A stretch of DNA of 64,000 bases from Amycolatopsis japonica (GTDB lineage: Bacteria > Actinomycetota > Actinomycetes > Mycobacteriales > Pseudonocardiaceae), in assembly GCF_000732925.1 (NCBI RefSeq), contig NZ_CP008953.1, positions 3,100,001 to 3,164,000 on the forward strand, written 5' to 3'. This document shows positions 59,053-63,265 of the stretch, in pieces. The translations under genes and the position numbers were made by a program. Within the stretch, counting starts at the first letter, position 1; each line of letters begins with the position of its first letter. The notes beneath the pieces were generated by a model that searched no databases, was not told where the DNA came from, and worked only from the letters and a program-made list of their open reading frames with translations.

Positions 59053-60378
59053 ATGAACCGAAAGATCGTAGCGGCCGCCGCGGCGGCCCTTACCGGCGCG
59101 GGCCTGGTCACGGCCGTCGCGCTGACGCCGAGCGCCAGCGCCGGCCAGACCGCTTCGGCGGCCGACCAGGTCCAGTCGGAGATCGTCGCCGCACTGGCGC
59201 GCGACCTGAAGATCAGCCCGGATCAGGCGAAGACCCGTCTCGCCGGCGAGCAGAAGGCGGCCCGCGCCGACGGCGACCTCAAGACCCGGCTCGGCCCGTC
59301 CTACGCCGGATCGTGGCTGGACGCGTCCGGGACCACGCTGACCGTCGCGGTCACCGACGCGGCCCTGGAAGGCGTCGTCCGTGCGGCCGGCGCGACCCCG
59401 AAGACGGTCACCCGGAGCGCCGCGCAGCTCGACGCGGCGAAGTTGTCGTTGGACGCCAAGGGAACCAGCGCGCCGAAGACCGTGCCCGGCTGGTACGTCG
59501 ACGCCACCACCAACTCGATCGTCGTCCTGGCCAACGCCGGTGGCGAAGCCGCCGCGAAGTCGTGGGCGACCGCTTCCGGCGTGCGTGCCGACGCGGTGCG
59601 GGTCGAGACCAGCACCGAAAGCCCGGTGCCGCTGATCGACGTCATCGGCGGCAACGCCTACACCTTCGGCTCGGGCCGGTGCTCGATCGGCTTCTCGGTC
59701 GAGGGCGGCTTCGTCACCGCGGGCCACTGTGGCACCACCGGCACACGCACGTCGAACCCGAGCGGGACCGTCGCGGGCTCCAGCTTCCCCGGCAACGACT
59801 ACGCGTGGGTCCGGGTGGACGCGGGCAACACCCCGCGCGGACTGGTGAACCGGTACCCGGGCACCGTCCCGGTGGCGGGTTCGCAGGAGGCCGCGATCGG
59901 CGCGTCGGTCTGCCGCTCCGGTTCCACGACGGGCTGGCACTGCGGCACGATCCAGCAGAAGAACGCTTCGGTGAACTACCCGCAGGGCACCGTTTCCGGC
60001 CTCACGCGGACCAACGCTTGCGCCGAGCCGGGTGACTCCGGCGGCTCGTGGCTCGCGGGCGACCAGGCACAGGGCGTCACCTCCGGTGGCTCCGGCAACT
60101 GCAGCTCGGGCGGCACGTTCTACTTCCAGCCGATCTCGGAGATCCTGAGCGTCTACAGCCTCCGCCTGGTGACCTCGGGCTCGAACCCGCCGTCGAGCAC
60201 GACGCCGACCACCACGACGTCGAACAACCCGCCCGGCGGAACCTGGGCGGCCGGTACCACCTACGCCGCGGGCGCGACGGTGACCTACGACGGCGTTTCG
60301 TACCGGGCCCTGCAGGGCCACACCGCTCAGGTCGGTTGGGAGCCGCCGAACGTCCCAGCGCTCTGGGCGCGCGCCTGA
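59053..60378 (+). CDS. Streptogrisin-like secreted protease with chitin-binding tail
   Basis: A 441-residue S1E (alpha-lytic) protease. Signal peptide 1 to about 30; a long prodomain (about 31-195) that guides folding; mature domain about 196-375 with His225 (TAGHC), Asp249 (GNDYAWV) and Ser329 (GDSGGS). A Ser/Thr/Pro linker leads to a C-terminal carbohydrate-binding module (about 395-441; WAAGTTYAAGATVTYDGVSYRAL) of the CBM5/12 type, as in streptogrisin C. It likely attacks protein on chitin-rich material. A strong terminator follows. Confidence 0.94.
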   Translation: MNRKIVAAAAAALTGAGLVTAVALTPSASAGQTASAADQVQSEIVAALARDLKISPDQAKTRLAGEQKAARADGDLKTRLGPSYAGSWLDASGTTLTVAVTDAALEGVVRAAGATPKTVTRSAAQLDAAKLSLDAKGTSAPKTVPGWYVDATTNSIVVLANAGGEAAAKSWATASGVRADAVRVETSTESPVPLIDVIGGNAYTFGSGRCSIGFSVEGGFVTAGHCGTTGTRTSNPSGTVAGSSFPGNDYAWVRVDAGNTPRGLVNRYPGTVPVAGSQEAAIGASVCRSGSTTGWHCGTIQQKNASVNYPQGTVSGLTRTNACAEPGDSGGSWLAGDQAQGVTSGGSGNCSSGGTFYFQPISEILSVYSLRLVTSGSNPPSSTTPTTTTSNNPPGGTWAAGTTYAAGATVTYDGVSYRALQGHTAQVGWEPPNVPALWARA

Positions 60379-60421
60379 CCACCTAGCCGTCCGGGCCACA
60401 CGCAGGGGTGCGCCCGGACCC

Positions 60422-60465
60422 GACCGCCCCCGACGTCGTCCGTGCGTCGGGGGCGGTCCCTTTTT
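60422..60465 (+). terminator. Intrinsic terminator of the streptogrisin gene
   Basis: GACCGCCCCCGACG (60,422-60,435) pairs exactly with its complement (60,445-60,458) around 9 bases, followed by CC and TTTTT. It is the clearest rho-independent terminator in the window. Confidence 0.9.
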
Positions 60466-60483
60466 GCCGGGTCGTGACGCCGC

Positions 60484-60576
60484 ACTCGCGTGATCGGAGA
60501 CGGAACTCGCGTGATTGGACGCCGAACTCGATGATCGGCGTTCAATCACGCGAGTTCCGTCCCTGATCACGCGAGT
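60484..60576. repeat. 93-bp near-palindrome between convergent genes
   Basis: ACTCGCGTGATC...GACGGAACTCGCGTGATTG...ACGCCGA is followed after a short loop by the almost exact complement up to 60,576. Each arm is about 42 nt and itself contains a direct repeat of ACTCGCGTGAT. It can form a long hairpin or cruciform and separates the streptogrisin gene from sugE. It is probably another dispersed intergenic element. Confidence 0.75.
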
Positions 60577-60594
60577 CACGCCTTCGGCGCCGGG

Positions 60595-60909
60595 TCAGTG
60601 CAGGACCTTCAGGCCCACCACACAGGCGACGATCCCCACGATCAGCAGGATCCGGGCCACCGAAACGGTTTCCGCGCCGGACCACATGCCGTAGGCGACG
60701 GTGAGCGAAGCCCCGATGCCGACCCAGACCGCGTAGGCGGTGCCGACGGGGAGGTCCTTCATCGCGTAAGCGAGACCCACCATGCTGGCCACCAGCGTGA
60801 CGCCGAAGATCACCGACGGCACCGGCCGGGACAAACCTTCGGATTTGCCGAGGGCGGTGGCCCACACGGCTTCCAGTACACCCGAGACGACAAGGACAAG
60901 CCACGACAT
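60595..60909 (-). CDS. sugE: Small multidrug resistance protein, SugE/Gdx guanidinium exporter
   Basis: A 104-residue four-helix SMR protein. ATG 60,909 (MSWLVLVVSGVLEAVWATAL) has a GGGAG site 6 bp away. Hallmarks of the SugE/Gdx branch are LEAVWATALGKSEG with the essential Glu in helix 1 (Glu13) and MKDLPVGTAYAVWVGIGA. Gdx proteins work as antiparallel dimers that swap guanidinium for protons. A guanidine-III riboswitch aptamer directly upstream on the same strand agrees with this assignment. It is convergent with the streptogrisin gene. Confidence 0.93.
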   Translation of the reverse strand: MSWLVLVVSGVLEAVWATALGKSEGLSRPVPSVIFGVTLVASMVGLAYAMKDLPVGTAYAVWVGIGASLTVAYGMWSGAETVSVARILLIVGIVACVVGLKVLH

Positions 60910-60912
60910 GAC

Positions 60913-60966
60913 GCGCTCCCAGAGCGCCGTCTTGTCGCTGGCCGGGTACGGCACCCACTCGTCCGG
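60913..60966 (-). promoter_or_regulatory. Guanidine-III (ykkC-III) riboswitch upstream of sugE
   Basis: On the minus strand, CCGGACGAG opens the aptamer (60,966), GTGCCGTACCCGG follows, and GACAAGACGGCGC closes it (60,924). Order and sequence match the guanidine-III consensus I recall. GTGCCGT (60,954-60,948) can pair with ACGGCGC (60,930-60,924). The same 3' strand, GCGCTC (60,927-60,922), can instead pair with GAGCGC (60,918-60,913), which covers the GGGAG ribosome site. Ligand binding should free the site and turn on translation. Confidence 0.88.
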
Positions 60967-61068
60967 GGACCTCGTTCAGGAGGTTCCTCGACCAGGATGG
61001 CACACCGCCCGCGTGGACCGCCCGCCGGTTTGACGAGGGTCACCACGCGGGCGCGCCATTGTGGACGG

Positions 61069-62280
61069 TCAGGTCAGCACCTTGGGCGCCGACCAGGCGA
61101 GCAAACCCAGTTCCAGCACCGAGAATCCGATCAGCGCCCACGCGCTCGGCAGCCAGATCAGCGCGATGCCGACGAGCAGGATGGGCAGGACCAGCCCGGC
61201 GTAGGCGGCCAGGAACAGGGCGGCGAGGACCTCGCCGCGCACCGGCGGTTCGGCGAGGGCGGCGACGGTGGCCACCGACGCGCGGAAGCCCAGCCCGACA
61301 CCGGCGCCCGCCACGATCCCGCCCGCGACGAAGAGCCACAGCTGGGACGTCGTCACCGCGACCGGCAGCGCCACCAGCCCGCTCACCATCAGCCCGAGGC
61401 CGAGCCGCAGCTGGGTTTTCCTGGCCAGACCGGCGAAGAGCACCTGCGCCGTGGCCGCCGCGAGGAACACGGAGAACGACGCGAGACCGGCCAGCAGCCG
61501 CGAGCTCTCGTGCATGCCCTGCGCCAGCAACGTCGGCGTCAGCGCCATGAACAGGCCCGTGATCGCGAACGCCGCGAAGGCGCCGATCGCCGCGCCGAAA
61601 AAGGCGGGCCGCGCGCTCGACGGCAGCGAGACGCGCTGCGGCCGATAGGCGGGCCGTTCTTCGGCGCGTTCCACGGTTTCCGGCACGAGCGCGACGGCGA
61701 TGGCCGCGGCGAGCAGCAGGACCAGGAAGAACACGAACGGGGTGGTGAGCGGCTCGGTCGAATAGCTCGCGAACACGCCACCGAACAGCGGGCCGAGCGC
61801 CAGCCCGCCCATGTTGACGACGGTCGCGATCAGTCCCGCGCGGCCGTGGTCCTCCCGGGGCCGGGCGACGGCGCGGAGTTCGGACAGGTGCGCGGTGGCG
61901 GTCGCGGTCAGCGCGCCGATGCCCGCGCCGCCGACGAGCCTGGCCAGGATCAGACCCGGAACATCCGGCCACGCCAGGAAAAGCGTCGCGGACAGCGCCT
62001 GGGCCAAGGTCGCGGCGAGGATCACTCGCCGTCGTCCCAGCCAGTCGCTGACGTGGCCGGCCAGATACAGGCTGCCCATCACACCGACGGCATACGCCGC
62101 GAAGACGATGGTCACGACATAGGTCGGGAAGCCGTCGCGCTGCTGGTAAAGCACGTAGAGCGGGGTAGGGACGGTGGAGAAGGCGAGCGAGGCGGCGTAG
62201 GCCGCCGCGATGATCCAGAAACCGCGGCCGTGGCTGATCCGCCGGAACGCGGGACGGGGGAGGGCGACGCTGTTCAGCAT
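61069..62280 (-). CDS. MFS drug-efflux type transporter
   Basis: A 403-residue protein with twelve predicted helices. ATG 62,280 has a GTGGAG site; the longer frame covers the LysR gene antisense. The MFS loop motif is GHVSDWLGRRRVI between helices 2 and 3, and LARLVGGAGIGALTATATAHLSEL is in helix 4. It has the look of an exporter (DHA1-like). It is divergent from a LysR gene with an inverted repeat between, so the LysR most likely controls it. The substrate is unknown. Confidence 0.87.
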   Translation of the reverse strand: MLNSVALPRPAFRRISHGRGFWIIAAAYAASLAFSTVPTPLYVLYQQRDGFPTYVVTIVFAAYAVGVMGSLYLAGHVSDWLGRRRVILAATLAQALSATLFLAWPDVPGLILARLVGGAGIGALTATATAHLSELRAVARPREDHGRAGLIATVVNMGGLALGPLFGGVFASYSTEPLTTPFVFFLVLLLAAAIAVALVPETVERAEERPAYRPQRVSLPSSARPAFFGAAIGAFAAFAITGLFMALTPTLLAQGMHESSRLLAGLASFSVFLAAATAQVLFAGLARKTQLRLGLGLMVSGLVALPVAVTTSQLWLFVAGGIVAGAGVGLGFRASVATVAALAEPPVRGEVLAALFLAAYAGLVLPILLVGIALIWLPSAWALIGFSVLELGLLAWSAPKVLT

Positions 62281-62335
62281 GTCTCCACTGTGAATCTTCG
62301 GATCATCCAAGTCCAACGAACAATCCTGGTCACAG

Positions 62336-62354
62336 TTATCGGTGGATGCGATAA
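62336..62354. promoter_or_regulatory. LysR site candidate TTATCG-N7-CGATAA
   Basis: TTATCG (62,336-62,341) and CGATAA (62,349-62,354) are exact complements around 7 bases, within the 82-bp divergent gap. The outer T and A and the spacing fit a LysR box. Confidence 0.6.
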
Positions 62355-62362
62355 TCAACGCC

Positions 62363-63265
62363 GTGGAGACCCGCCAACTCGAGTGTTTCGTCGCCGTCGC
62401 CGAGGAACTCAGCTTCACGCGCGCCGCCCAGAGGTTGTACGCGGTGCAGTCCACCGTCTCTGCGACGATCCAGGCCCTCGAAGGCGAACTGGGGGTCAAG
62501 CTGTTCGATCGGTCCACGCGAAGGGTCGCGCTCTCCCCGGCGGGGAAGGTGTTCCTGCCCGAGGCGAAGGCCGCGCTGGAAGCCTTCGACAGGGCCCGCG
62601 ACGTGGTCACCGACGCCTCCGCCGGCCTGCGGGGCAGCCTCCGAATCGGCACGCTGACCAGCGTCGGCGATCTCGACCTGCCCGATCTGCTCGGCGCGTT
62701 CCATCGCCGTTATCCGCTGGTCGACCTGCATGTTTCGGTGTCGATCACCGGCTCGACCGGACTGGCCGAGGACCTGCGTCAGGGCAGGCTCGACGTCGCC
62801 CTCCTCGGTCTGCCCGAATCCGATCTCACCGGGCTCGAAGCCAAACTGCTCGGTTCGGCGCCGTTCGTCGCCGTGCTGCCCGACGGCCACCGGCTGAGCG
62901 GACGGCGTTCGCTGACGTTGGCCGACCTCGCGGGCGAGTCGTTCGTGGACAATCCCCGCGGCTTCGGCAACCGGGTGGCCCTGGACCGCGCTTTCGAGGC
63001 ACTCGGGGCGCCGCGCCGGGTCATCGTCGAGGTCGCCGACCTGCGTGCCGTGCCCTCCTATGTGGCGGCGGGGCTCGGTGTCGCCGTCGTGCCCGATCTC
63101 AAGCTGCTCGCGGGGGTCCGGACGATCCCGCTCGACGAGCCCGGCCTCACCTGGCCGCTGACCATCGCCACCCGGGGAGAGCGTCCGCCAAGCCGGGCCG
63201 CCCGGCTGCTGCTCGACCTCGTCGACAGCGGGGAGTTCTCCCTCGTGATCCCCGCCCGGACCTGA
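62363..63265 (+). CDS. LysR family regulator
   Basis: A 300-residue LysR protein. GTG 62,363 gives the usual family start (VETRQLECFVAVAEELSFTRAA); an upstream GTG at 62,342 lies inside the inverted repeat. The helix-turn-helix reads RLYAVQSTVSATIQALE, and the inducer domain follows from about residue 85. It is divergent from the MFS exporter. The stop is 2 bp from the convergent TetR gene. Confidence 0.88.
   Translation: METRQLECFVAVAEELSFTRAAQRLYAVQSTVSATIQALEGELGVKLFDRSTRRVALSPAGKVFLPEAKAALEAFDRARDVVTDASAGLRGSLRIGTLTSVGDLDLPDLLGAFHRRYPLVDLHVSVSITGSTGLAEDLRQGRLDVALLGLPESDLTGLEAKLLGSAPFVAVLPDGHRLSGRRSLTLADLAGESFVDNPRGFGNRVALDRAFEALGAPRRVIVEVADLRAVPSYVAAGLGVAVVPDLKLLAGVRTIPLDEPGLTWPLTIATRGERPPSRAARLLLDLVDSGEFSLVIPART

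Follow-up and report, generated by a model that had tools for sequence, protein, structure and literature searches.

A guanidine-III riboswitch that very probably turns on translation of a Gdx-type guanidinium exporter gene

The window (the whole stretch of DNA analyzed, 64 kb in length, from a soil actinobacterium) carries on its minus strand a structured RNA element located immediately upstream of gdx, a gene for a small membrane exporter. Our analysis indicates that the element is very probably a guanidine-III riboswitch turning on translation of the Gdx guanidinium exporter. Directly observed in this reading are the class of the aptamer, the type of the exporter, and two mutually exclusive pairings, which relatives maintain. 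An earlier sequence-only reading of the same DNA had proposed an ON switch, an interpretation that our comparison of related loci supports.

Searching the whole window with the Rfam covariance models, a check that this earlier reading had suggested for 60907-60990, returned a full-length match to RF01763 on the minus strand at 60989-60921 (model positions 1 to 67 of 67; 62.3 bits for a gathering cut-off of 36 bits; E = 1.8e-10), and no other family scored over its cut-off. The lack of a hit, which the earlier reading had named as a refutation, was thus not observed. The element, which occupies positions 60921 to 60989, is present in a single copy in the genome. Its 5′ hairpin (60969 to 60984) is formed, according to the model alignment, by ACCUC (60984-60980) and GAGGU (60973-60969). 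The pseudoknot aptamer (60924 to 60966) is readable in the sequence as helix P1, in which CCGG (60966-60963) pairs with CCGG (60945-60942), and helix P2, in which GUGCCGU (60954-60948) pairs with ACGGCGC (60930-60924), all on the minus strand. The strands of P1 and P2 interleave, as they do in an H-type pseudoknot. The sequence-only reading had placed the aptamer at 60924-60966; its coordinates and letters were correct on checking, and this interval is the pseudoknot part of the Rfam family, to which the 5′ hairpin has to be added. The pocket residues C6, G7, and G17 (numbering of the crystal structure in PMC5696562) correspond to C60961, G60960, and G60949. On the minus strand, the elements follow each other in the order CCGGACGAG...GTACCCGG...GACAAGACGGCGC, then TCTGGGAGCGCGTC, then the ATG.

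Both helices were maintained in a set of 105 deduplicated relatives, pair counts being matched for 148 of 150 loci (L070 and L142 remained unmatched). The four pairs of P1 were standard in 103, 105, 105, and 105 of the 105 relatives and three change on both sides, as exemplified by the replacement of CCGG/CCGG by CCCG/CGGG in 9 rows. For P2, the pairs were standard, from the outer to the inner one, in 91, 61, 94, 91, 100, 105, and 105 of the 105 relatives; the register used for this count was a simple one, with some rows misplaced, and one outer pair fits only 61 of the relatives in it. P2 pairing was also kept despite changes on both sides. Pairs G17-C36 and U18-A35 were invariant (105/105). 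By these sequence criteria the RNA is a typical guanidine-III member, ordinary for its class, and membership in the class predicts that it binds guanidine and not urea, PMC5696562 giving a half-point of about 60 µM for the class. The Thermobifida fusca guanidine-III (ykkC-III) RNA of crystal structure 5NWQ (PMC5696562) shares with the window C6, G7, G17, P1, P2, and the core GACAAGAC, the aptamer comprising 43 nucleotides in the window versus 41 in the crystal construct. As in known guanidine-III riboswitches (RF01763), the element is located upstream of a guanidinium exporter gene and near the ribosome site. That site is 3 nucleotides from P2 in the window, versus 16 nucleotides stated for T. 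fusca in PMC5696562.

The gdx gene (60595 to 60909, minus strand) begins 11 nucleotides downstream of the RF01763 match with an ATG at 60909-60907 and encodes a 104-residue protein, a Gdx-type member of the SMR family according to profile matches and alignment. An in-frame GTG at 60954 (119 residues) was rejected as the start, since it falls inside the aptamer and the alignment with relatives begins at the ATG. The product matched PF00893 with 66.8 bits for a cut-off of 23.7. Its nearest solved relative is Gdx-Clo (PDB 6WK5), which aligns without gaps over residues 1 to 102 and whose residues E13, W16, S42, and W62 are kept, whereas T63 is replaced by a valine. According to PMC7695847, W16 is conserved in Gdx and replaced by glycine or alanine in Qac-type members. 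The NCBIfam model of SugE, NF008512, scored 94.2 bits, below its equivalog cut-off of 126, so that of the two names used by the sequence-only reading, Gdx is better than SugE, which we do not claim in the NCBI sense. By relation, the product is predicted to export guanidinium.

The 3′ strand of the aptamer can engage in a second pairing, which excludes P2. GCGCUC (60927-60922), which overlaps the P2 strand ACGGCGC (60930-60924), can pair with GAGCGC (60918-60913), which begins with the three letters that close the ribosome site GGGAG (60916 to 60920, 6 nucleotides from the ATG). This inner hairpin, GCGCUC-UGG-GAGCGC (60913 to 60927), has a loop of three nucleotides and shares positions 60927-60924 with P2. 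The two exclusive pairings described by the sequence-only reading, with GTGCCGT inside the aptamer and with GAGCGC next to the GGGAG, are therefore both present, as is its hairpin with a 3-nucleotide loop. The claim that this hairpin ends 3 nucleotides before the ATG was wrong. In the minimum free energy fold, the helix continues outward with GAC (60931-60929) paired to GUC (60912-60910), an A-A mismatch between A60932 and A60909 (the A of the AUG), and CGACA (60937-60933) paired to UGUCG (60908-60904), with a bulged G at 60928 or 60927, two forms of equal energy. The start codon is therefore inside the proposed full OFF hairpin (60904 to 60937), which rests on this fold and on the leader swap test. 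The 38 nucleotides from 60937 to 60900 fold at −20.0 kcal/mol, versus a mean of −11.6 kcal/mol (standard deviation, 2.6) for 200 shuffled sequences, 2 of which were as good.

We propose the following mechanism. Without guanidinium, the 3′ strand of the aptamer (60937-60922) would cover the start region, comprising the ribosome site, the GUC before the start, the AUG, and the codons after it, so that ribosomes could not start translation (OFF). Guanidinium bound at G60960, G60949, and C60961 would hold ACGGCGC (60930-60924) in P2, the OFF helix could not form, and the ribosome site and AUG would be released. The exporter would then be made until the guanidinium level drops. In the OFF state, an mRNA that has lost its ribosomes may in addition be degraded faster. 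This ON mechanism, the most likely one, is that already proposed in print for the class, in which freeing of the ribosome site turns translation on (PMC5696562 and PMC12186494). The workings of guanidine-II and -III switches are called less well established in PMC5696562, where the nearness of the ribosome site is the ground for inferring that it is released. Our analysis contributes support for the anti-site helix, drawn from the comparison of relatives, and proposes that the start codon is part of this helix.

The comparison relied on 156 aptamer loci, 79 fetched by the RNA and 77 by the protein. Leader tests used 150 of these, the loci left out being L051, L056, L062, L063, and L074, which have no Gdx after the element, and L060, in which two SMR genes occur in a row and the start was not placed; L003 and L035 were kept although their chosen start codons are doubtful. 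Spacers of at most 20 nucleotides were found at 125 of the 150 loci, leaving 75 short leaders after removal of near copies, whereas 25 loci with spacers of 21 to 56 nucleotides were excluded from the swap test. By eye, we observed in a group of the long-spacer leaders (L025, L027 to L030, L039, L041, and L046) that a tail GCAGTG can pair with CACTGC before the ribosome site, with variants of this hairpin in L023 and L033. Judged from their sequences, these leaders use the same aptamer with a different expression platform. Another arrangement, also seen by eye, occurs in one other genus (L066, L067, L072, and L073), in which a pairing of GCACC with GGUGC, over the ribosome site, is possible.

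In the 75 short leaders, the aptamer strand paired with its own leader at −10.85 kcal/mol versus −9.71 kcal/mol with swapped leaders (standard deviation, 0.25), and none of 10,000 swaps was as low, the gain averaging about 1.1 kcal/mol. The variable tail tested alone against the leader gave −3.92 kcal/mol for own and −3.00 kcal/mol for swapped pairs (0/10,000 as low). Stricter thinning, to 16 rows, led to a weaker outcome, with 50 of 5,000 swaps as low for the hairpin and 121 of 5,000 for the duplex. A control with shuffled leaders was set aside because shuffling also destroys the ribosome site. Together, these comparisons point to pairing between the 3′ strand of the aptamer and the leader that is kept in relatives beyond chance, and they argue at the sequence level for an expression platform that the leaders share. 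As evidence that the ligand raises translation, the pairing results are indirect and mixed. A pair of the inner hairpin is broken by a mismatch in some near relatives, such as L006 to L008 and L016. In a set of 76 deduplicated short leaders, the ribosome site was part of the helix or enclosed by it in a fraction of 0.97 of own versus 0.86 of swapped combinations (0/200 swaps), at least two letters of the site were paired in 0.36 versus 0.29 (10/200 swaps), and the AUG was in the helix in 0.83 versus 0.79 (37/200 swaps), while letters −3 to −1 were paired in 0.68 of both own and swapped combinations of these leaders; in this set, as in the 16-row, accessibility, and opening-cost tests, the cut of the aptamer strand was late by a few letters for some rows. 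The 75-row swap tests and the GUC count reported below used the corrected cut, with the same outcome as that for the 76-row set.

These results bear on a reading in which mRNA stability is a further, or even the main, target of the switch, the transcript being shielded from RNase E by the pseudoknot that guanidine folds. Such shielding is claimed for the class in PMC12186494, which cites another study for it and names it alongside freeing of the ribosome site. The long-spacer hairpin described above, which ends before the ribosome site, is a poor fit to blocking of the site alone. We nevertheless consider this reading unlikely, on odds that do not exclude the translational reading with which it overlaps, given that the ribosome site is in or inside the alternative helix both in the window and in nearly all of the 76 short leaders and that pairing of the aptamer strand with the leader is kept beyond chance in the 75.

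A quite improbable alternative is that the aptamer is real but high GC content and fixed letters (GACAAGAC, the ribosome site, and the ATG) yield the anti-start hairpin as a by-product, regulation being exerted otherwise or weakly. Swapped leaders do form much of the helix, as the fractions of 0.86 for the ribosome site and 0.79 for the AUG indicate. An invariant core cannot co-vary, and the fixed core tested alone displayed no preference for its own over swapped leaders (1,622 of 5,000 swaps as low). Modeling of accessibility is also on the side of a by-product, the ribosome site not being opened on average when the aptamer was blocked. In this test, which applied a simple blocking model to the leaders having a recognizable ribosome site (92 of a deduplicated set of 95), the mean unpaired probability of the site did not rise, being 0.53 free and 0.46 blocked in 73 short leaders and 0.42 and 0.38, respectively, in 19 long ones. 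A gain of more than 0.2 on blocking was found for 10 of the 73 short and 3 of the 19 long leaders. The window's own site had unpaired probabilities of 0.26 free and 0.28 blocked, and once the aptamer is blocked, it pairs with the beginning of the coding region. In favor of the switch, the modeled energy needed to open the start region in the window fell from 21.9 kcal/mol free to 7.6 kcal/mol with the aptamer taken away, and the corresponding difference averaged 6.65 kcal/mol for own versus 5.98 kcal/mol for swapped combinations, a moderate effect (43/5,000 swaps as large); the pseudoknot is not scored against the OFF helix by any model of this analysis. Against a by-product stand the joint change of the variable tail and the leader, reached by none of the 10,000 swaps, and the letters preceding the start codon. 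GUC immediately precedes the start in 36 of the 75 short leaders and 8 of 19 long leaders, versus 6 of 136 other genes that carry a ribosome-site motif at loci L080 to L159, a background of unannotated open reading frames some of whose starts are wrong. The trait is therefore about 10 times more common than in other genes (Fisher P = 3e-14 for a count of 37/76 versus 6/136). A tree of 94 Gdx proteins, built by a quick method from about 100 residues, requires at least 31 changes of the trait, which so is not merely inherited.

The GUC suggests a more specific form of the riboswitch mechanism. The letters GUC-AUG-UC around the start are the complement of the eight-letter core GACAAGAC, with one A-A mismatch. 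The same eight letters would act as the binding core with guanidine and as the cover of the AUG without it. We propose tentatively, at rather less than even confidence, that the invariant ligand core GACAAGAC doubles as a start-codon lock, that leaders across Actinobacteria would therefore have reached GUC repeatedly, and that the variable tail co-varies with the flank of the ribosome site. That the conserved core pairs with the start codon is a specific, testable prediction.

Control of transcription, with the OFF hairpin acting as an intrinsic or Rho-dependent terminator, is very improbable: the hairpin is stable and GC-rich, and Rho sites can become exposed on untranslated RNA, but no T run follows it and no intrinsic terminator-like site was found on the minus strand from 60380 to 61200.

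The association of the RNA with the gene extends well beyond the window. Among the best 80 of at least 567 confirmed Gdx relatives, located by protein alone, 77 have RF01763 upstream, the exceptions being L110, L130, and L143. Within Amycolatopsis, 57 of 80 genomes have the riboswitch, 57 have a Gdx at least 55% identical to that of the window, and 56 have both. Inspection by eye of the two exceptions in the genus, G006 and G021, revealed aptamers without the CCGGACGAG half. These guanidine-III remnants (L161 in G006 and L160 in G021) differ in that one is still before gdx and the other is without gdx. In wider samples, RF01763 was present in 111 of 249 genomes of the family and in 51 of 396 genomes of the phylum. 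The RF01763 class is found upstream of guanidine-related genes, and 5 of the 79 loci fetched by the RNA are those listed above as having no Gdx after the element. At three of them (L051, L062, and L063, from order-mates of another family), the guanidine-III element is located, as seen by eye, before a ureohydrolase-like gene instead of Gdx, the product of which is perhaps a guanidine hydrolase. At L056 and L074, the gene directly after the element encodes a small protein other than Gdx, membrane-like and about 155 residues long.

In the window, the element begins 79 nucleotides after the end (61069) of an MFS transporter gene on the minus strand. The open reading frame of that gene (61069-62652, 527 residues, GTG start as listed) overlaps a LysR gene (62342-63265) on the other strand, and its true start is therefore probably further in. 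No sigma-70 consensus promoter was found for the element. TANNNT motifs at −11 to −7 relative to the start of the Rfam match occurred 39 times in 119 deduplicated upstream stretches, but the window has none at this position, and we therefore claim no transcription start for it. Between gdx and the next gene, positions 60484-60576 contain a 42-nucleotide inverted repeat of ACTCGCGTGAT units. With 84 genomic copies of the 12-mer ACTCGCGTGATT (42 per strand), versus 0 for the reversed control, this is an interspersed palindromic repeat. On the plus strand, a terminator-like hairpin (60422-60458) of 15 pairs followed by CCTTTTTGCC is located after a gene encoding an alpha-lytic-protease prodomain (59053-60378).
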